This document shows positions 6,067 to 18,088 of a DNA stretch of 64,000 nt, piece after piece. The notes beneath the pieces are model-generated. The model was not told where the DNA came from, searched no databases, and was given only the letters and a program-made list of their open reading frames with translations. This stretch comes from Leifsonia sp. fls2-241-R2A-40a (GTDB lineage Bacteria; Actinomycetota; Actinomycetes; Actinomycetales; Microbacteriaceae). The position numbers were made by a program, and so were the translations under genes. Positions within the stretch are counted from its first letter, which is position 1; each line of letters opens with the position of its first letter. Location: NCBI RefSeq assembly GCF_030209575.1, contig NZ_JARVRS010000001.1, positions 1,798,001 through 1,862,000 on the forward strand, in the 5' to 3' direction.

Positions 6067-6764
<698 letters not shown>

Positions 6765-9187: not shown

Positions 9188-10266
9188 GCGGGGTCCTCGG
9201 ATGGTGTGCGGTCGGGGAGTTCGCCGAACTGGCGGACGGTGAGTCCGCGAGCCGTCGCGAGCCAGTCCGGCAGTGCGGCGGGGTCGTCCGGCGCCGTGCC
9301 GGCCACCCACGCCAGGCGCGGGCCGATGGTGGGGGCGCGGTCGTCGTCCGGGCGGCGCAGGCCGGCGATGGAGCGCAGCACGTCGTCGGGATGGACGCCC
9401 GCGTCGATCATCCCGCGGAGCTCCCGGGCGTTCACGCCGACGGCGAGGGGACCGTTCCCCAGATCGGTGCCGTACAGGATGCGCCCGCCGGCCGCGGCGA
9501 AGCGGCCGAGGTTGTCGGAGGCGATGCGGTGGTGCTCGGTCGGTTCTCCCCAGCCGTGGATGTCGAGGGTGCTGACCAAGCTCATCCTCCTATGCACGCA
9601 TTCGGCGATCAGCTCGTCGTCGAGGCGCTCGGTGAAGGGAGTGTGCGCCAGCTGGTCGGCGCCCGCGCGGACGGCCCTGGCGGTCTGGCCCGCGCCTTCG
9701 ACGTGGACGGTGACCGGCACGCCCTGCGCATGGGATTCGCTCACAATTCCGTGGAGCACCCGGTCGTCCACCGTTTCGCCGGCCGCGGTGTTGAGGGTGA
9801 CCTTGATCCGCGAGGCTCCCAGGGTTATGTTCCCCCGCACGACCAGCCGCGCCTCGCGCTCGCCGCCCACCTCCGTGGCGGAGCCCGGCGGCCCCCACCC
9901 GGCGTTGACCGGGTAGCCGCCCCGGCACGTGATGAGCGAGCCCACGATGGCGACCGAGGGCCGCGTCGGGTCGTCGGCGAGCCAGCCCGCGGCGACGGCC
10001 GGCACCCAGCCGAGGTCGATCGCGTGCGTGATCCCGCCGGTGAAGAGCGCCGCCTGGTCGGTGAGGCCGAGGTGCGTGTGGTGGTCCGTGAGCCGCGGGA
10101 AGAGGGTTCCGCCGAGGTGGACGCGGCTGCGCGCAGGCACGTCGTCGACAGGATGGAGGCGCTCGCCGTCGCTTCGGAAGGTGGTCGGTCCGAGGAAACG
10201 GCGACCGTTCCAGACGGCGTCGACGGAGAGGAAGGTCTCGGCGGCTGCCGGGTGCGGCTCGCTCAT
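9184..10266 (-). CDS. Amidohydrolase-superfamily protein between tryptophan dioxygenase and kynureninase
   Basis: A 360-residue metal-dependent hydrolase. Visible metal-site candidates are the HxH of DHHTHLG (His63/His65), His in VHVEGAGQ, His in QLAHTPF and Asp in LYGTDLGNG, the usual TIM-barrel amidohydrolase set without an obvious carboxylated Lys. It overlaps both flanking kynurenine genes by 4 bp (ATGA), so it is co-translated with them. No classical formylkynurenine formamidase (kynB type or alpha/beta hydrolase type) is in the operon. This protein is therefore a candidate for the missing N-formylkynurenine deformylation step. That function is inferred from context only. The ATG is at 10264-10266. 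Confidence 0.8.
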   Translation of the reverse strand: MSEPHPAAAETFLSVDAVWNGRRFLGPTTFRSDGERLHPVDDVPARSRVHLGGTLFPRLTDHHTHLGLTDQAALFTGGITHAIDLGWVPAVAAGWLADDPTRPSVAIVGSLITCRGGYPVNAGWGPPGSATEVGGEREARLVVRGNITLGASRIKVTLNTAAGETVDDRVLHGIVSESHAQGVPVTVHVEGAGQTARAVRAGADQLAHTPFTERLDDELIAECVHRRMSLVSTLDIHGWGEPTEHHRIASDNLGRFAAAGGRILYGTDLGNGPLAVGVNARELRGMIDAGVHPDDVLRSIAGLRRPDDDRAPTIGPRLAWVAGTAPDDPAALPDWLATARGLTVRQFGELPDRTPSEDPA

Positions 10267-11123
10267 GCGGGGGCTCCGATCTCGGTGCGCACGGCGTAGA
10301 GCTCGGGGAAGAAGGTGAGCTCGAGCGCCTTCTGCAGGAACGCCGAACCGCTCGACCCTCCGGTGCCCGTCTTCATGCCGATCGTGCGCTGAACGGTTTT
10401 CAGGTGGCGGAACCGCCAGAGCTGGAAGTTGTCCTCCAGGTCGACGAACTCTTCGCAGGCCTCGTACTCCGGCCAGTGCTCGTTCGCGTGCTCGTAGATC
10501 TCCCGGAACACGGGGACCAGCTCCGGGGTGAAGACGTGCGCCTCGGTGACGTCCCGCTCCAGGAGCGCCGTCGGCACGTCGAAGCCGGCGCGGGCGAGAT
10601 ACCGAAGGAATTCGTCGTAGATGCTCGGCGCCGCGAGCAGCTCGGCGAGCAGGGCGTGCGCTGCCGGGTCGCTCTCGAAGACGCTCAGCATGCGCCGGTT
10701 CTTGTTGCCGAGCACGAACTCGACGGCTCGGTACTGGTACGACTGGAACCCGGACGAGTTGCCGAGGAAGCCGCGGAACTCCGCGTATTCGGTCGGCGTG
10801 AGGGTGGCGAGCACCGACCACTGCTCGGTGAGCGTGCGCTGGATGTGCTTGACGCGGGCGATGCGCTTCAAGGCCGGCGACAGGTCGTCCGCCCGCAGCA
10901 GGTCGCGCGCGGACTCGAGCTCGTGCAGGACGAGCTTCAGCCAGAGCTCTGTCGTCTGGTGCTGGATGATGAACAGCAGTTCGTCGTGGTGCTCGGGCCG
11001 GCTCACCGGACGCTGGGCGCTCAGCAGCGTCTCCAGCTCCAGGTAGGAGCCGTAGGACATCCGCTCCCGGAAGTCGGTGACGATATCGGGATCGAACTCA
11101 CGGGTGTTGTCGCCGGCGGCCAT
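10263..11123 (-). CDS. kynA: Tryptophan 2,3-dioxygenase
   Basis: A 286-residue heme dioxygenase that opens the indole ring of tryptophan to give N-formylkynurenine, the first step of the operon. Family blocks are MSYGSYLELETLLSAQ, DELLFIIQHQTTELWLKL (substrate and heme pocket), FRGFLGNSSGFQSYQYR, and WRFRHLKTVQRTIGMKTGTGGSSG near the end with the proximal His. The ATG is at 11121-11123. It is first in the minus-strand operon and diverges from the phosphonate gene phnD. A possible promoter lies immediately upstream and would give a very short leader. Confidence 0.97.
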   Translation of the reverse strand: MAAGDNTREFDPDIVTDFRERMSYGSYLELETLLSAQRPVSRPEHHDELLFIIQHQTTELWLKLVLHELESARDLLRADDLSPALKRIARVKHIQRTLTEQWSVLATLTPTEYAEFRGFLGNSSGFQSYQYRAVEFVLGNKNRRMLSVFESDPAAHALLAELLAAPSIYDEFLRYLARAGFDVPTALLERDVTEAHVFTPELVPVFREIYEHANEHWPEYEACEEFVDLEDNFQLWRFRHLKTVQRTIGMKTGTGGSSGSAFLQKALELTFFPELYAVRTEIGAPA

Positions 11124-11169: not shown

Positions 11170-11224
11170 GTTCACGGCGGTGTAACCAGCGGTTGCCCGC
11201 GCCGTCGTCTGGCGTCCCTAGCGT
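11170..11224 (+). promoter_or_regulatory. PHO-box-like promoter of phnD
   Basis: Three consecutive 11-bp units begin GTTCACG (11170), TGTAACC (11181) and GTTGCCC (11192). This resembles the tandem 11-bp GTTCACC repeats bound by PhoP in actinobacteria. Sixteen bases after the last unit comes TAGCGT (11219-11224), a plausible -10. The promoter of phnC has the same units and the same 16-base spacing. Confidence 0.65.
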
Positions 11225-11288
11225 GCCGGTCGGAGCGCGGCAGCCCAGATGCGTCGCGCCCGAATCCCTCACCAGGAAGGTCCACCCG

Positions 11289-12221
11289 ATGAAACTCTCC
11301 CTCACCAAGACGCTCGCCGTCGGCGCGGCGCTCGTGCTCTCGCTCGGTCTCGCCGCCTGCACCGGCTCGGCCGACGCCGCCTCGACGGACGGCGCCTCCG
11401 ACTCGGCGGTGTCGTTCGCGAAGGACTCCGGCACCCTCGTCTTCGGCGTCGTCCCCGACACGGTGAACACCCAGTCGAACTACCAGCCGATCGCCGACTA
11501 CATCGCCAAGATCACCGGCAAGAAGGTCGAGTACCGCGAGTCGAGCGACTACACCGCGCTCATCCAGGCCGCGATCGCCGGTCAGATCGACGTCGCCAGC
11601 TTCTCCGGCTTCACCTACGTGACGGCCACCAACGGCGGCGCCAAGATCCAGCCGTTCGCCTCGATCATCACCAAGGAGGGCCAGGAGCCCGGCTACTTCT
11701 CCGAGGCGATCGTTCCGGCGAACTCGAAGATCACCAAGCTGGAGGACTTCAAGGGAAAGAAGGTCTGCTTCGTCGACCCGAGCTCGACCTCCGGCTACCT
11801 CTTCCCGACCTACAACCTGATCAAGGCCGGCATCGACCCGGAGAAGGACATCACACCGGTCTTCGCGGGCAAGCACGACGCATCGGCGCTGAAGGTCTCG
11901 CAGGGCGCCGAGTGCGACGCCGGGTTCGCCGAGGACTCCGCCGTCGACGCCCAGTCGGGCCTCAAGGTCGTCGCCAAGACGATGGTCCCCGGCGCGCCGA
12001 TGGTCTTCTCGACCACGCTGCCGGACGACGTCAAGAAGACGCTGACCGACAAGCTGTCCACGGTCACGATCGCGGACATCCAGAAGGCGGGCATCAAGGA
12101 CGCCGACTCCGACGGGTTCAAGGCGACGTTCGCCGCCTTCAGCCCGGTCGACGACAAGTACTACGACCAGATCCGCGACATCTGCAAGGTCACCAAGGCC
12201 ACGCAGTGCGAGGCCAAGTGA
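11289..12221 (+). CDS. phnD: Phosphonate ABC transporter substrate-binding lipoprotein PhnD
   Basis: A 310-residue solute-binding protein of the phosphate/phosphite/phosphonate class. The signal peptide ends in a lipobox (SLGLAAC, lipidated Cys24). The body has LVFGVVPDTVNTQSNYQPIAD, then KKVEYRESSDYTALIQAAIAGQIDVASF and GKKVCFVDPSSTSGYLFP, which are signatures of the family ligand pocket. The ATG at 11289 has AGGAAGG ten bases upstream; the open frame further upstream is antisense to kynA. It is followed after a hairpin by phnC and a double phnE. It probably binds aminophosphonates, given the catabolic genes downstream. Confidence 0.93.
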   Translation: MKLSLTKTLAVGAALVLSLGLAACTGSADAASTDGASDSAVSFAKDSGTLVFGVVPDTVNTQSNYQPIADYIAKITGKKVEYRESSDYTALIQAAIAGQIDVASFSGFTYVTATNGGAKIQPFASIITKEGQEPGYFSEAIVPANSKITKLEDFKGKKVCFVDPSSTSGYLFPTYNLIKAGIDPEKDITPVFAGKHDASALKVSQGAECDAGFAEDSAVDAQSGLKVVAKTMVPGAPMVFSTTLPDDVKKTLTDKLSTVTIADIQKAGIKDADSDGFKATFAAFSPVDDKYYDQIRDICKVTKATQCEAK

Positions 12222-12244
12222 CGGCCTGACCGGCCGCACTCAGG

Positions 12245-12273
12245 CCGCCCGTCCCGGATTCCGGGGCGGGCGG
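12245..12273 (+). terminator. GC-rich hairpin between phnD and phnC
   Basis: A 13-bp stem (12245-12257 with 12261-12273, one G-U pair) with a 3-base loop, 24 bp after the phnD stop and without a U-run. It could be a partial terminator or an mRNA end that stabilises the abundant binding-protein message ahead of phnC, which has its own promoter. Confidence 0.5.
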
Positions 12274-12337
12274 TCCGTCGTTCGGCGGACTGCGCAGGGC
12301 CGGCCGTGTACCCCGGAACACCCGCCGTCCGTCCCCC

Positions 12338-12392
12338 GTTCACCCCCGCTTTACCGCGAGTTGCGCCCTCCGTCGCACCCGGCTCCTAGCCT
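12338..12392 (+). promoter_or_regulatory. PHO-box-like promoter of phnC
   Basis: Three consecutive 11-bp units begin GTTCACC (12338), CTTTACC (12349) and GTTGCGC (12360). Sixteen bases after the last unit comes TAGCCT (12387-12392). The first unit is a perfect match to the actinobacterial PHO-box core GTTCACC. The arrangement matches the phnD promoter base for base in spacing. Confidence 0.7.
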
Positions 12393-12425: not shown

Positions 12426-13244
12426 ATGTCCGACACTTCACGCGCAATCGAGGTCACCGGTGTGACCAAGCGGTTCGCCGAGACCACCGCGCTCGACGAC
12501 GTGAGCCTGACGGTCGCCCGCGGCGAGATCGTCGTGCTCCTCGGACTCTCCGGTTCCGGCAAGTCGACCCTGCTCCGTCACCTGGACGGACTGGAGCTTC
12601 CGACCAGCGGCGACGTGCGCGTCCTCGGCCAGTCGGTGCCGGGCCTCCGCGGGCGGGGGTTGCGCGCGCTGCGCTCCCGCGTCGGATTCATCTTCCAGCA
12701 GTTCGAGCTCGTCGGTCCGCTCTCCGTGCTGGAGAACGTCCTGACCGGCGCCCTCGCGACCCTGCGCGGTCCGCGGCTCGGTGTGTTCAGCTACCCGGCT
12801 TCTCTTCGCCGCCGCGCGCAGGCCCACCTGGAGCGGGTGGGACTCGCCGACAAGGCCTACCAGCGTGCCGACACGCTCTCCGGCGGTCAGCAGCAGCGCG
12901 TCGCGATCGCGCGCGCCCTGATGCAGGAGCCGGAGGTGCTGCTCGCGGACGAGCCCGTCGCCTCCCTGGACCCGGAGTCGAGCGAGCAGGTCATGAACCT
13001 CATCCGCGAGATCGCTCTGGATGACGGACTCACCGTGGTGTGCAGCCTCCACCAGGTGGATCTCGCGCTCGGCTGGGGCGACCGCATCGTCGGGCTCCGG
13101 CACGGCAGTGTCGTGCTGGATACGCCCACCTCCGGGCTGGACAAGGCGCAGGTCATGGAGATCTACGGTCGCGTCGCGACCACCACGAGCGAGCTGGCCG
13201 CCATCGCGACCGAGCTCGTCGATGTTCCCGTGCAGCCCGCCTGA
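12426..13244 (+). CDS. phnC: Phosphonate ABC transporter ATP-binding protein PhnC
   Basis: A 272-residue ABC ATPase that energises phosphonate import. Walker A is GLSGSGKST (about residues 40-48), Q-loop FIFQQFELVG, signature LSGGQQQR, Walker B VLLADEPVASLD and the switch His in CSLHQVD. FQQFELV and the DDGLTVVCSLHQVDLAL block match PhnC rather than general amino-acid ATPases. The ATG at 12426 has GAGGA upstream. The stop shares one base with the phnE start (TGATG), so transporter subunits are translationally coupled. Confidence 0.95.
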   Translation: MSDTSRAIEVTGVTKRFAETTALDDVSLTVARGEIVVLLGLSGSGKSTLLRHLDGLELPTSGDVRVLGQSVPGLRGRGLRALRSRVGFIFQQFELVGPLSVLENVLTGALATLRGPRLGVFSYPASLRRRAQAHLERVGLADKAYQRADTLSGGQQQRVAIARALMQEPEVLLADEPVASLDPESSEQVMNLIREIALDDGLTVVCSLHQVDLALGWGDRIVGLRHGSVVLDTPTSGLDKAQVMEIYGRVATTTSELAAIATELVDVPVQPA

Positions 13245-14833
13245 TGGTCACCGTCCCCGTCGCGGCGCGCGCCGGCGTCGCGCGTCCCCGCCCGTCCGGC
13301 TCGCGGATCGCGGCCGTCGCCGTCCTGCTCGCCCTGCTGGGCTTGGGAATCGGGGCCTTCCCGATCCTCGGGCTGAGCTTCCAGACCTTCGAGCGCAGCC
13401 TCCCGCACGCCGAGGCGTTCCTCGAGCGCGCGTTCCCGCTGCGCTTCCCGCCGCCCGAGGTGCTCTGGCCGGCGATCGGCGAGACGCTCGGGATGGTGAT
13501 CCTCGGCACCCTGCTCGCCGCCCTGCTCTCGTTGCCGGTCGCCTGCATCGCGGCGGCCAACACGACGCCGCATCGCAGCCTGCAGTGGCTCGGCCGCGGC
13601 ATCACCGTGGCGACCCGGTCCATCCCGGATGTGGTACTCGCCATGATCTTCGCCGTCATGTTCACGCTCGGCACGCTTCCCGGCATCCTGGCCATCGGCA
13701 TCCATTCGATCGGCATGATCTCGAAGCTGTTCGCCGACGCGATCGAGCAGATCGACGAAGGTCCACGGCTGGCGATCCGTGCCGCGGGCGGCAGCCGGTC
13801 GCAGGAGTTCCTGTCCGGCGTGCTGCCGCAGGTGGCCCCGAGCTGGGTGGCGACCGTGCTCCACCGCAACGACATCAATCTGCGCGGGTCGATCATCCTC
13901 GGCTACGTCGGTGTCGCGGGGCTCGGCTACGAACTGTGGCGCGCGCTGGCGACCCTGGACTACCGCACCGCGATCGCGCTGGCGTTCGTGATGTTCGCCC
14001 TCTGTGTGGTGATGGAGGTCGTCTCGTCCAGCATCCGCCGGGTCATGCTCGGCGGCGGCCCGGCGCGCACGCGGGCGCAGCGCCGGGTGCGCAACACGGC
14101 GACCGTCGCGGTGCTGGCCGTGGTGGTGCTCGGTTCGTTCTGGATCGCGCAGATCCACTGGGGCGACTTCCTGACCTTCTGGCGCAACCTCGGCCTCATC
14201 CGGCTGTGGCCGCCGACGTTCCAGCCGTACACGGTCGAGCAGATCGCGGTGGCCATGCGCGACACCGTGCTGATCGCGCTCGCGGCGACCGTCGTCAGCC
14301 TGGTGTTCTCCCTGGCCATCGGCTCGCTGGCTGCGCGGAACGTCGCGCCCGGCCCGGTCACCCGCAACGGTTTCCGGACGCTGCTCGTCGCCATCCGCGG
14401 CGTCCCGGAGCTGGTGCTCGCCATCGTGCTCATCATCATCACCGGGCTCGGGCCGACGGCGGCGGTCGTGGCGCTCGCGTTCGGCGGCGTCGGGCTCCTG
14501 GGCAAGCTGTTCGCCGACTCCATCGAGGAGGTCCCGGCCGGTCCGCAGCGCGCGCTCACCGCCGTCGGCGCCCGCCGCCTGCAGGTGTACTCGGCCGCGA
14601 CCGTTCCGCCGAGCGTCCCGGCGTTCGTCGGGCACAGCTTCTACCTCTTCGACAGCAACATCCGCGCGGCGACCGTGCTCGGCGTGGTCGGCAGCGGCGG
14701 GATCGGGTTCTACCTCAACAACGCGGCCCGGGTCTCCGCCTACAACGAGGTCTTCGCGTTCGTGCTCGTGATCATGGCGACGGTCTTCGTCGTCGAAGGA
14801 CTCGCCGTGTGGATGCGGCGGGCGCTGCGCTGA
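13244..14833 (+). CDS. phnE: Phosphonate ABC transporter permease, two PhnE modules fused
   Basis: A 529-residue membrane protein made of two PhnE-like permease modules in tandem (about residues 1-270 and 290-529). Each has its own ATPase-contact loop: LAIRAAGGSRSQEF in the first and ALTAVGARRLQVYS in the second. Each also has the family phrase (NDINLRGSIILGYVGVAGLGYEL; FDSNIRAATVLGVVGSGGIGFY). Many systems encode two separate PhnE proteins. Here one chain supplies both halves of the channel. The start overlaps the phnC stop by one base. Twenty bases downstream the FAD oxidase gene begins. Confidence 0.92.
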   Translation: MVTVPVAARAGVARPRPSGSRIAAVAVLLALLGLGIGAFPILGLSFQTFERSLPHAEAFLERAFPLRFPPPEVLWPAIGETLGMVILGTLLAALLSLPVACIAAANTTPHRSLQWLGRGITVATRSIPDVVLAMIFAVMFTLGTLPGILAIGIHSIGMISKLFADAIEQIDEGPRLAIRAAGGSRSQEFLSGVLPQVAPSWVATVLHRNDINLRGSIILGYVGVAGLGYELWRALATLDYRTAIALAFVMFALCVVMEVVSSSIRRVMLGGGPARTRAQRRVRNTATVAVLAVVVLGSFWIAQIHWGDFLTFWRNLGLIRLWPPTFQPYTVEQIAVAMRDTVLIALAATVVSLVFSLAIGSLAARNVAPGPVTRNGFRTLLVAIRGVPELVLAIVLIIITGLGPTAAVVALAFGGVGLLGKLFADSIEEVPAGPQRALTAVGARRLQVYSAATVPPSVPAFVGHSFYLFDSNIRAATVLGVVGSGGIGFYLNNAARVSAYNEVFAFVLVIMATVFVVEGLAVWMRRALR

Positions 14834-14853
14834 CAGGAACAGGGAGGCATCGG

Positions 14854-16011
14854 ATGGGCAGGCACTACGATCTCGCGGTGGTCGGCGCAGGCATCGTCGG
14901 TCTCGGCCATGCCGTGGCCGCCCTGCGTCGCGGGTTGACGGTCGCGGTCGTCGACCGGGCCTCGAGCGTCAACGGCGCCTCGGTCCGCAACTTCGGGCAC
15001 CTCTGCATCACCGGGCAGGAGGGCGAGGCGCGCGCCTACGCCGAGCTGGCCCGCGAGCTGTGGCTGACCCTCGCGCCCGAGGCGGGCTTCTGGCTGCGCG
15101 AATCGGGCACGGTCGTCGTGGCCCGGGCGGACGACGAGCTCGCCGTGCTGGAGGAGTTCCGGGAGCGCCGAGGCGGTCACGGTGTGCGCATCCTGACGCC
15201 GGCGGAGGCCCGCGAGCGGGTCCCCGTCGCGGACGGGGTGGCACTCGGCGGCGCCTTCCTTCCGTCGGACCTGCAGGTGGACCCGCGCGAGGCCGCGGTC
15301 GCGATCATGCGGTGGCTGGATGCGCACGGTGTCGACTTCTTCTGGCAGACCGCCGTCGTGGGCGTCGAGACCGGGACCGTGCACACCACCCGCGGCCGCG
15401 TGGCGGCGGACACGGTCGTCGTCGCGGTGAACCACGACGTCGACCAGCTGTTCCCGGGCATCGCGGAGGCGCACGGCATCCAGCGCTGCGGGCTCGACAT
15501 GATGCTCGTCGAGGCCGCGCTCGACCAGCCGCTGTCCGCGCCGCTCCTCACCGGCTGGTCGCTGGTCCGGTACGCCGGGTTCGCGCACACTCCGAGCGCG
15601 GCGGCCCTCCGTGAGCGGCTCGCTGCCGAGCAGCCGGCGCTCGCCGCGATGGATGTGAACCAGATGTACACGCAGCGGCCCGACGGCACCCTGGTGGTCG
15701 GGGACACGCACTACCGCGGCGCCGACGTGACGCCGTTCCAGCCGGAGGAGGCCTTCGCGCTGCTGCTGGAGCAGACGCGCGAGCTGTTCGGAGTGAGCGA
15801 GCTGCGGGTCCGTGAGCGCTGGCAGGGCGTCTACGCCTCCGCGCCGGAGGAGTTCCTCGTCGCTGCGCCCGCCCCGGACGTCCGCGTCGTCTCGGTCACC
15901 ACCGGCATCGGCATGACGACAGGGCTCGGCCTCGCCGACCGGGTCGTCGACGAGCTGTTCTCGGGGGCTCCCGGCTCCCTTCTTCCCGCAGGCGCCGCTC
16001 GCGCCCGCTAG
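14854..16011 (+). CDS. FAD-dependent aminophosphonate oxidase-like protein (TIGR03364 type)
   Basis: A 385-residue flavoprotein of the D-amino-acid-oxidase group. The FAD-binding GxGxxG is in VVGAGIVG (residues 9-16), followed by NGASVRNFGHLCITGQ, a block characteristic of the TIGR03364 clade, and a late FAD contact TTGIGMTTGLGLAD. That clade is found beside phosphonatase-like hydrolases and phosphonate transporters. It is thought to deaminate 2-aminoethylphosphonate analogues, for example hydroxylated or N-methylated forms. The ATG at 14854 follows AGGGAGG. The next gene is the matching hydrolase, 26 bp downstream. The exact substrate is not visible from sequence. Confidence 0.85.
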   Translation: MGRHYDLAVVGAGIVGLGHAVAALRRGLTVAVVDRASSVNGASVRNFGHLCITGQEGEARAYAELARELWLTLAPEAGFWLRESGTVVVARADDELAVLEEFRERRGGHGVRILTPAEARERVPVADGVALGGAFLPSDLQVDPREAAVAIMRWLDAHGVDFFWQTAVVGVETGTVHTTRGRVAADTVVVAVNHDVDQLFPGIAEAHGIQRCGLDMMLVEAALDQPLSAPLLTGWSLVRYAGFAHTPSAAALRERLAAEQPALAAMDVNQMYTQRPDGTLVVGDTHYRGADVTPFQPEEAFALLLEQTRELFGVSELRVRERWQGVYASAPEEFLVAAPAPDVRVVSVTTGIGMTTGLGLADRVVDELFSGAPGSLLPAGAARAR

Positions 16012-16037: not shown

Positions 16038-16928
16038 ATGACCCCTGACGGACGCATCACCAGCGAATTCGACGACGTGACCGTCGTCTCCGGACCGGCG
16101 GCGACGGCCGCCCCCGCGGGCGCGGACGGCGACGTGGACTGGGACGAGTTCGACGTCGTCGAGGACGCCCTGGACCGCGAGGACGACGCCGACGACCGCG
16201 ACGAGGACGACCTCGCCGATCTGGAACTCGTCGTGCTCGACCTGGCCGGCACGACCGTCGTCGACGACGGACTGGTCGAGCGCGCGTTCGAGCGCGCCGC
16301 CGAGGTGGCGGGCATCGGCGAGACGCCTGACGACCGCGCCGCCGCGCTCGCCTTCGTGCGCGACACCATGGGCCAGTCGAAGATCGCCGTGTTCCGCTCG
16401 CTGACCGGCGACGAGGACCAGGCGCAGCATGCGAACGCCGTCTTCGAGTCCGCCTACGCGGAGCTCGCGGCCAGCGAGGGGCTGCGCGCTGTCCCCGGTG
16501 CCGAGGAGCTGATCCGCCGCCTGCGCAGCTCCGGGGTCAAGGTGGCGCTCACGACGGGCTTCTCGCGGACGACGCAGGATGCGGTCCTCGACGCCCTCGG
16601 ATGGCGCGACCTGGCGGATGTGACGCTGAGCCCGGCCGAGGCGGGCCGCGGCCGGCCGTTCCCCGACCTGCCGCTGACGGCGCTCCTGCGCACGGGTGCA
16701 TCCAGCGTGGAGGGGATGGTCGTGGTGGGCGACACCGCCAGCGACATCGCCTCGGGGATCGCCGCCGGCGCGGGTCTGGTCGTCGGCGTCCTCACCGGCG
16801 CGCACGACGAGCAGACGCTGCTGGACGCCGGGGCGGATGCGGTGCTGCCGAGCGTCGCCGACCTGCCCGAGCTGCTCGGTTTCGAGGTTCCGGCGGACGA
16901 CGCCGCGGAGGGGTCCGGCACCCGGTGA
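16038..16928 (+). CDS. Phosphonatase-like HAD hydrolase (TIGR03351 type) with acidic N-terminal extension
   Basis: A 296-residue HAD protein. The nucleophile motif is DLAGTTV (Asp68), with Ala in place of the second Asp, as in phosphonoacetaldehyde hydrolase PhnX. GQSKIAVFRSL, TTGFSRTTQDAVL (motif II Thr region) and MVVVGDTASDIASGIAAGAG (motif IV) follow. Members of this type accompany phosphonate oxidases and probably cleave a phosphonoacetaldehyde analogue. Residues 1-62 precede the HAD fold and are very acidic (19 Asp/Glu in residues 30-61). The ATG at 16038 is well supported by GAAAGG seven bases upstream, so the extension is likely real. The stop overlaps the next gene's GTG by 4 bp. Confidence 0.88.
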   Translation: MTPDGRITSEFDDVTVVSGPAATAAPAGADGDVDWDEFDVVEDALDREDDADDRDEDDLADLELVVLDLAGTTVVDDGLVERAFERAAEVAGIGETPDDRAAALAFVRDTMGQSKIAVFRSLTGDEDQAQHANAVFESAYAELAASEGLRAVPGAEELIRRLRSSGVKVALTTGFSRTTQDAVLDALGWRDLADVTLSPAEAGRGRPFPDLPLTALLRTGASSVEGMVVVGDTASDIASGIAAGAGLVVGVLTGAHDEQTLLDAGADAVLPSVADLPELLGFEVPADDAAEGSGTR

Positions 16929-18088
16929 CGATCAAGGCGGTCACCCCGCGCGTCGTCGAGCCGCCGGCGCGCCTGGGGATGGGGGTGAGCGTGTACCCGT
17001 CGGCCACCGCGATGGTGTGGCCGGGGGAGGGGCACGCCCACGAGGCGGTCGCGGTGCCGGGTGTGCGACTGGCGCCCGGCGACGTGCTCGTGGAGGTGGA
17101 GCTCGCGACGGTGTGCGGGTCGGACATCCACACGGTGCTCGGCCATCGCCAGGCACCGGCCCCACTCGTGCTCGGGCACGAGCAGGTGGGCCGCGTGGTC
17201 GCGCTGGGGCGCGGCGGGGCGAAGACGACGGACGGCCACCGCGTCTCGCTCGGCGAGCGGATCGTGTGGTCCGTCGCCGTCCCGTGCGGCCGCTGCGTGC
17301 GCTGCCGCCGCGGACTGCCGCAGAAGTGCCTGAGCCTGCAGAAGTACGGACATGAGCGGATGCGCCGCGGCTGGGAGCTGTCGGGCGGCTTCGCGACCCA
17401 CACCCACATCCTCGACGGCACGCCGCTGGTGCGCGTGCCCGAGGAGCTGCCCGCGGAGGTGCTCGCACCGGCTTCCTGTGCCACGGCGACGGTCGCAGCG
17501 GCGGTGGAGGCGGCATCCGTCATCGTCCCGCTCGAGGGCGCGCTTGTGCTGATCGCCGGTGCCGGGATGCTGGGCCTCACCGCGACCGCCATGGCGGTGG
17601 AGGCCGGAGCGCGCGTCGTGATCAGCGACCCCGTGCCCGAGCGGAGGGACGCAGCGCTCGCATTCGGCGCGTCAGGCGTCGCGGATCCGGGAGCAGCAGC
17701 GGGATCGCCGACCGGCCTCGCCGCGGTGCTCGCCAAGGTGGGAGGTCGCTCCCCGGCTCCGACGATCGCGCTCGAGCTGTCGGGCAACCCGGCCGCGGTC
17801 CGGTCGCTGCTCGGAGCGGTGGACGTCGGCGGCGTGCTCGTCCTCGTCGGTTCCGTATCGCCCGGCCCCGAGCTCGGGATCGTTCCGGAGCAACTGGTCC
17901 GGCGCCTCCTCACCATCCGCGGCGTGCACAACTACGCGCCGCGGCACCTGGAGCAGGCGGTCGGCTTCCTCGCCGCCGCGTGGCAGCGGTATCCGTTCGC
18001 CGAGCAGGTGGGCGAGACGTTCCCGCTCGCCGACGTGGATGCGGCGCTCGCCGCGACCGGACATCCGCGCATCGGCGTGCGGCCGTAG
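16925..18088 (+). CDS. Zinc-dependent alcohol dehydrogenase associated with phosphonate catabolism (TIGR03366 type)
   Basis: A 387-residue medium-chain dehydrogenase. Catalytic zinc ligands are the Cys of ATVCGSDIHT and the His-Glu of LGHEQVGRV. The structural zinc site is the four-Cys block from PCGRCVRC to LPQKC. The NAD-binding glycines are GAGMLG. The YGHERMRRGWELSGGFATHTHI stretch and the phosphonate context point to the TIGR03366 clade. It probably interconverts an alcohol and aldehyde arising from phosphonate breakdown; the substrate is unknown. The start GTG at 16925 overlaps the hydrolase stop by 4 bp (GTGA), and the longer frame upstream is read through that gene. Confidence 0.85.
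   Translation: MTIKAVTPRVVEPPARLGMGVSVYPSATAMVWPGEGHAHEAVAVPGVRLAPGDVLVEVELATVCGSDIHTVLGHRQAPAPLVLGHEQVGRVVALGRGGAKTTDGHRVSLGERIVWSVAVPCGRCVRCRRGLPQKCLSLQKYGHERMRRGWELSGGFATHTHILDGTPLVRVPEELPAEVLAPASCATATVAAAVEAASVIVPLEGALVLIAGAGMLGLTATAMAVEAGARVVISDPVPERRDAALAFGASGVADPGAAAGSPTGLAAVLAKVGGRSPAPTIALELSGNPAAVRSLLGAVDVGGVLVLVGSVSPGPELGIVPEQLVRRLLTIRGVHNYAPRHLEQAVGFLAAAWQRYPFAEQVGETFPLADVDAALAATGHPRIGVRP

Follow-up and report, generated by a model that had tools for sequence, protein, structure and literature searches.

Do two similar sites, one upstream of phnD and the other upstream of phnC, place a phosphonate island of Leifsonia sp. fls2-241-R2A-40a under the control of phosphate starvation? 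An earlier note on this DNA had described them as matching PHO-box-like promoters, each built of three 11-base units and a -10 box, and had predicted PhoP control of the whole island. The window analyzed here is the full stretch of 64,000 nucleotides in which the island lies. Our reading, drawn from sequence comparison, is that both sites are very probably Pho-regulon operator-promoters under RegX3/PhoP-type control at low phosphate, giving rise to two mRNAs; "PhoP" denotes here a RegX3-type regulator.

The island and the anatomy of its two sites

All genes of the island lie on the forward strand, phnD 3′ of the first site and phnC, phnE and the genes for an FAD-dependent oxidoreductase, a HAD hydrolase and a dehydrogenase 3′ of the second. 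phnD (11289..12221) encodes the substrate-binding protein of a phosphate/phosphite/phosphonate ABC transporter (TIGR01098, 169.1 bits against a cut-off of 112.05), phnC (12426..13244) the transporter ATPase (TIGR02315, 287.8 bits, cut-off 266.1), and phnE (13244..14833) a single protein in which two permease domains are joined (TIGR01097, 433.8 bits over two stretches, cut-off 216.7). The equivalog models of both PhnC and PhnE are exceeded, as is proper to a PhnDCE transporter. PhnD passes the broad model and misses the PhnD equivalog TIGR03431, which would mark a phosphonate transporter (161 bits, cut-off 261.1), so that phosphonate is only a putative substrate of PhnDCE. The FAD-dependent oxidoreductase (14854..16011; TIGR03364, PbfD-like, 421.9 bits, cut-off 285.1) begins at an inferred start, the first ATG after phnE, and the searches used 14833-16008. 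It is a predicted aminophosphonate oxidoreductase of the family that holds PbfD1, an enzyme reported to oxidize N-methyl-2-aminoethylphosphonate and, less well, 2-aminoethylphosphonate (passages of PMC10590968). It is followed by a HAD phosphonatase-like hydrolase (16038..16928; TIGR03351, 249.7 bits, cut-off 218.9) and a dehydrogenase of TIGR03366, a proposed phosphonate-catabolism alcohol dehydrogenase (16925..18088, with an inferred GTG start; 434.3 bits, cut-off 328.1). The divergent left neighbour, encoding tryptophan 2,3-dioxygenase (10263..11123, reverse strand; TIGR03036, 401.5 bits), shares an intergenic region with phnD and lies outside the system.

Both sites are where the earlier note had placed them, with an 11-base register and a TAGC(G/C)T box 49 bases from the first unit, all of which is directly visible in the sequence. 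On the forward strand, the phnD site (11170-11224) reads GTTCACGGCGG TGTAACCAGCG GTTGCCCGCGC, 16 nucleotides and TAGCGT, and the phnC site (12338-12392) reads GTTCACCCCCG CTTTACCGCGA GTTGCGCCCTC, 16 nucleotides and TAGCCT. Units 1 and 2, which form the PHO box proper, occupy 11170..11191 at phnD and 12338..12359 at phnC. The following stretch holds the +22 unit, a weak +33 stretch and five further bases (11192..11218 with CGTCGTCTGGC at +33; 12360..12386 with CGTCGCACCCG at +33), and the -10 boxes lie at 11219..11224, 70 bases before the phnD ATG, and at 12387..12392, 39 bases ahead of the ATG of phnC. Both sites have the form of an actinobacterial PHO-box promoter, in which two or more direct 11-nt units carry a 7-nt core resembling GTTCACC. 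The likeness of the two sites lies in their layout; base for base they agree at 33 of 55 positions.

How many units define the box was judged from the mean number of matches to GTTCACC (out of 7) at each offset, against a background of 1.77 (s.d. 0.58). In the pstS set the means are 6.35 at 0, 6.30 at 11, 4.00 at 33 and 3.75 at -11, and offset +22, at 1.4, lies below background; for this reason we do not count a third 11-base unit among the elements that define the box. Eight family phnD promoters, picked because they carry the box, also have their third peak at 33 (4.0). The genus phn promoters reach moderate means at +22 (3.55) and at +33 (3.1), and a distinct +33 unit was discarded for them, its mean being no higher than those at offsets -22 and -7 (3.25). 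The +33 unit, which falls within the 16 bases ahead of the -10 box, stands out in pstS and in the family phnD promoters but not in the genus phn promoters, and the window's stretch at this offset has only 3/7 identity to GTTCACC. Because of these averages we regard the pair at 0 and 11 together with the fixed distance to the -10 box as the constant parts. Of the three-unit box that had been proposed, the first two units therefore stand, and the third, at +22, is a feature of genus phn promoters and not of pstS.

The presence of a second promoter within the island may be explained by a GC-rich hairpin just 3′ of phnD (12245..12273, forward strand), a possible terminator or attenuator which has no T run here. 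In the window, the first 70 nucleotides past the phnD stop have a folding energy of -49.4 kcal/mol (z -4.4 relative to mononucleotide shuffles), and a hairpin within 70 bases of the phnD stop is present in all four Leifsonia islands with two promoters; the counterparts have values of -38.1 (z -1.9, L072), -40.4 (z -3.4, L074) and -46.2 (z -4.5, L078) against the same kind of shuffle, and only that of L078 is followed by a T run. In Streptomyces lividans the pstS transcript exceeds that of pstCAB, which has been attributed to terminators between pstS and pstC (passages of PMC7866108), whereas in the island a second PHO promoter comes after the hairpin.

Comparison with pstS and across the genome

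The natural reference is pstS, and the organism's own copy, an undoubted phosphate gene, carries the same PHO-box site. In the genus, GTT(A/T/C)ACC-N4-GTTTACC followed by TAGCGT (once TAGCTT) at +49 precedes pstS in 25 of 30 loci, and the remaining five precede longer PstS-like paralogs. Among 28 further pstS-type loci of the family, the best-scoring from 60 genomes, the best pair has TAnnnT at +49 in 19; the nine others comprise seven long paralogs and two genes of normal length (L309, L326). The layout shared by pstS and the phn sites is thus directly observed.

An exact search for GTTCAC-N7-T-N-ACC-N4-GTT in the 3.75 Mb genome returned two matches, the phnD and phnC sites, where base composition predicts about 0.02, and with up to two mismatches 38 places were found against 7 for the reversed pattern. 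Since this pattern was drawn from the two sites themselves, the independent test is a matrix built from 20 distinct pstS sites of the genus, covering units 1 and 2 and the -10 hexamer. Matrices were applied to the window together with 19.5 kb of the pst-phoU region. Among 166,786 positions the pstS-derived matrix ranks the organism's own pstS first, phnC second and phnD third; without the -10 hexamer phnC is still second and phnD only 24th. In the reverse test, a matrix based on relatives only (18 phn/FAD promoters, none of them from the window) gives 27.7 for phnC, 27.6 for the own pstS and 26.9 for phnD, the next position reaching 12.7.

The dimer of units 1 and 2 is by itself less selective. 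Five exact dimers occur in the genome, the phnC site among them, and 72 places have at most one mismatch (21 when reversed), a class to which the phnD site belongs with its single mismatch. Thirty of these 72 places were read individually, and TAnnnT at +49 was present in three: phnC, pstS and an ABC binding-protein gene.

Several other places in the genome have similar units. An exact dimer with TACCGT at +49 (L147 1501-1555, near 2650792 of G000:C1) lies before a gene (1608-2741) for an SBP_bac_6 binding protein whose likeness to PhnS is weak and below cut-off; this is a candidate for a further transporter under Pho control. GTTCACC/GGTCACC/CGTCACC stand in register (L145 1501-1533, near 2187230 of G000:C1) before a metallophosphoesterase gene (1609-2793) whose product has a signal-like N-terminus, in a promoter without TAnnnT at +49. 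On the reverse strand at L118 9301, GTTTATCCACC GTTTACACGGC precedes a putative ppk and is fourth by the pstS-derived matrix; in Streptomyces, ppk is named among the genes with PHO boxes (passages of PMC7866108). Ahead of a putative NRPS-like adenylation-domain gene (L148 1501-1540), an exact dimer ends five bases before TAGCGT, so that the box is 22 bases nearer to it than in pstS.

The geometry is also recognizable in a distant system. In the pstS promoter of E. coli K-12, 47 bases separate the TCA of unit 1 from TATTTT, which we take to be its -10 box, and the same 47 bases are found at both phn sites, with the reservation that the TCA alignment was chosen after seeing the sequence and that this one E. 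coli promoter was compared. The same promoter (PhoB pho boxes, NC_000913) has units at 0, 11, (22) and 33 as well, and differs in its unit, CTGTCAT, and in belonging to another phylum. Closer in kind are the PHO boxes of Streptomyces coelicolor PhoP, whose unit is GTTCACC (passages of PMC4415409) and which are alike in the 11-nt unit length, the GTTCACC consensus and multi-unit operators with weak units (passages of PMC4415409 and PMC7866108); the regulator considered here is RegX3-type, unlike PhoP of S. coelicolor, and the phosphonate genes of the island represent the FAD/HAD type rather than C-P lyase. The site of Microlunatus PolR, GTTCACnnnnnGTTCaC, is found at phosphate genes and displays the same direct repeat and the same 11-base period, whereas PolR itself has been likened to M. 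tuberculosis DevR, not RegX3 (passages of PMC6754071).

Conservation and apparent loss in Leifsonia and its family

An ortholog of the FAD gene (E below 1e-150) is present in 23 of 28 genus genomes, and phnDCE precede it in four of them, this genome, G005, G012 and G014. In these four, TAnnnT stands at +49 in all eight phnD and phnC sites. In the 19 genomes without phnDCE at the locus the box precedes the FAD gene in every case, 17 times at +49 and twice (L079, L080) at +38, one 11-base turn nearer to the -10 box; over the genus, 25 of 27 phn/FAD boxes have TAnnnT at +49. Conservation at orthologous promoters is therefore a direct observation for every genus genome with an FAD ortholog (19/19 and 4/4), and control goes with the catabolic operon, the box being found at the FAD gene where phnDCE are missing. 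The register of these genus boxes was chosen from the top three placements, as a simple three-unit count often preferred a position one or two units upstream, and in L078 both the phnD and phnC sites are only second-ranked by simple consensus count.

All 16 FAD promoters of genomes without phnDCE at the locus that were compared in register are closer to the window's phnC than to its phnD promoter, by at least 5 bases in ten and by only 1 to 3 in six; that of L069 agrees with the phnC promoter at 47 of 55 positions and with the phnD promoter at 35. The phnC site lies closer to consensus than the phnD site, and this could explain some of the likeness. For the L079 and L080 promoters it is the phnD promoter that gives the best alignment, with the common downstream sequence GTCGGAGC and, apparently, a net deletion of 11 bases. 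In L120, from a 2.6 Mb genome, the interval between the PHO box and the FAD gene holds two pieces (6159-6331) that match the final 58 residues of phnE, and the FAD gene has internal stops. By its sequence match we read this C-terminal remnant as a trace of lost phnDCE; at E 0.01 no transporter remnant was detected in any other genus locus lacking phnDCE. The simplest reading of these comparisons is repeated loss of phnDCE with the PHO promoter kept, horizontal gain being the alternative.

The FAD gene has a second, divergent copy (48-57% identity; L121, L122, L123, L124) in three genus genomes and in G002, where a phnDCE copy elsewhere in the genome goes with a second FAD gene. These copies have no forward PHO box, and the upstream regions of L122-L124 share AACTTATCTATACAAGTG-like sequences.

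Beyond the genus the box is less regular. The FAD gene was found in 68 of 249 family genomes searched, and 20 loci were examined further, taken in E-value order without internal-stop rows, one short-contig row and loci already included. Five of the 14 phnD promoters among them have a forward box (L206, L207, L208, L214, L217), two more (L205, L220) score weakly and have TAGC(G/C)T in register, and the box is present at one (L201) of the six FAD loci without phnD. Among named phnD loci, the best 80 of 244 encoding a relative, 10 have a forward box with TAnnnT at +49, scoring above the best reversed control (10.9), and belong to Leifsonia, Plantibacter, Mycetocola, Agromyces and Cryobacterium; the 70 without it include three Leifsonia-titled records (L267, L269, L272). 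At phnC the box appears in one of 79 named loci, Leifsonia sp. Root227 (L223), which has both sites. A PHO box at phnD is hence not universal in the family. One of the records (L294), titled Sporosarcina beigongshangi, has Microbacteriaceae-like phnDCE with 63% identity to this PhnD and is possibly a mislabelled or contaminated assembly.

Many of the boxless loci show another repeat. TGAA-N7-TGAA before GGT/GGC at a near-fixed distance was found in 29 of the 70 loci without a forward box and in none of the 70 when reversed, by an expression written after reading 16 of these sequences. Upstream of phnD in L224 and L229 the flipped layout is GTTCAT-n15-GTGAAC-n5-CTGAAC-n10-TAGGTA, with variants in L231, L240, L278 and L297; the units are on the opposite strand and nearer to the -10 box. 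It could be a PHO box on the opposite strand or the site of another regulator. The PhoR site of Corynebacterium glutamicum, CCTGTGAAaatCCTGTGAA, has a tandem 8+3 repeat with the same 11-base period (passages of PMC3353115), and differs from the Leifsonia sites in its opposite-strand reading (TGTGAA), in which it resembles the flipped layout. In M. smegmatis phosphate limitation induces the phnDCE genes (passages of PMC7866108), and control is exerted there by the GntR repressor PhnF at an operator. A GntR operator upstream of phnD was considered for the family and not established, TATACAA/TTGTATA occurring in one of the 80 named loci and the looser GTATA/TATAC in 27 of the 70.

The regulator, rival readings and implications

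In this genome the genes for PhoU, a sensor kinase and an OmpR-family regulator are grouped some 9-11 kb away from pstS, so that the kinase/regulator pair expected of a PHO-box system is present beside phoU. The kinase has PnpS and PhoR as its best models, both below cut-off. The best solved relative of the regulator is M. tuberculosis RegX3 (2oqr, E 2.5e-104, 350.8 bits), with MtrA next at 205.9 bits, and the regulator of both sites is likely the RegX3-type PhoP encoded here. The phoU-kinase region of this genome has a PHO score of 6.1 (reversed control -1.2), within the range of controls elsewhere, which reach 7.7. A partial GTTCAGC/CGGCACC/GTTAACC stretch between phoU and the sensor kinase gene, considered as a possible autoregulatory PHO box, recurs in 29 loci (L089-L117), with scores mostly of 5.6-10.5, two of 16.6 and one of 2.3, a range that overlaps the controls (up to 7.7).

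Under Pho control, the phosphorylated RegX3/PhoP-type regulator would, when phosphate is scarce, bind head-to-tail to the 11-base GTTCACC-like pair at +0/+11, with weaker binding to further units in phase towards the -10 box, and would recruit RNA polymerase to the TAGCGT-type -10 box, the usual -35 position falling within the +22 unit. The first promoter would yield a phnD mRNA, a share of which probably terminates at the hairpin 3′ of the gene, and the second a phnC-phnE-FAD-HAD-ADH mRNA. The extra phnD mRNA would supply the binding protein in excess, and uptake and breakdown would be switched on together.

That a GC-rich genome produced the likeness by chance is scarcely credible: one-mismatch dimers are indeed common (72 places against 21 reversed), but the ranks under the pstS-derived matrix, the conservation in the genus and the reversed controls all speak against it. 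It is also improbable, though less so, that another OmpR-family regulator (GlnR, MtrA or AfsR-like) binds the sites in response to nitrogen, envelope stress or some other signal, the PHO likeness being a family resemblance. An OmpR-family gene that we read as GlnR-like does lie near pst, with model matches that are below cut-off and none of which is named GlnR, and the region upstream of phnD has a 7/9 match to the GlnR pair, for which we assumed the consensus gTnAc-n6-GaAAc. The best pair at phnC, on the other strand, is 6/9, whereas amt, a nitrogen gene of this genome, carries a 9/9 pair in its promoter, which has a PHO score of only 2.7 (phnD 12.4, phnC 23.9), so a GlnR site at phnD or phnC appears unlikely and GlnR was rejected as the regulator. 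C. glutamicum MtrA likewise uses an 11-base repeat, but its unit, (A/G)TAACAAT (passages of PMC3353115), differs from the phn units, and the common layout with pstS in both genus and family loci favours a phosphate regulator.

A third reading accepts the PHO boxes and holds that phosphate is the main cargo of the transporter, which would make the island a second system for scavenging phosphate, with the catabolic operon as a passenger. PhnD falling below its equivalog cut-off would fit this, as would M. smegmatis PhnDCE, which transports phosphate (passages of PMC7866108). Against it, the linked FAD, HAD and dehydrogenase genes belong to aminophosphonate-catabolism families (a proposed role for two of them), and the box is kept on the catabolic operon where the transporter is missing; we consider this reading unlikely, if the most plausible of the three. 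Pho control of the phosphonate island, as the earlier note had predicted, is thus supported by sequence comparison: the same pair and register occur at genus and family pstS and are conserved at orthologous phosphonate genes of the genus, the GlnR site of amt looks different, and the regulator genes are present.

More tentatively, and with somewhat less than even confidence, we suggest that selection keeps the phosphate-starvation control and that the transporter is dispensable. On this proposal Leifsonia lineages that began with two tandem PHO promoters, at phnD and phnC, would have deleted phnDCE at least twice, a PHO promoter being left before the catabolic operon each time, mostly of the phnC type and in L079/L080 of the phnD type; the -10-anchored layout would be common to E. 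coli pstS, and the family would hold a flipped version at phnD.

The mechanism is of a known kind, and the case is an unusually clean one. Among the papers covered by our literature search none dealt with PHO boxes at phn genes in Microbacteriaceae, which does not prove that there is none. For this family, the comparison of promoters provides a well-supported assignment of an FAD/HAD-type phosphonate pathway to the Pho regulon. The fixed geometry, a pair at +0/+11 with a -10 box at +49, offers a precise criterion by which Pho genes can be sought in these genomes, and loci that have apparently lost the transporter but kept the promoter amount to a natural experiment on promoter retention.
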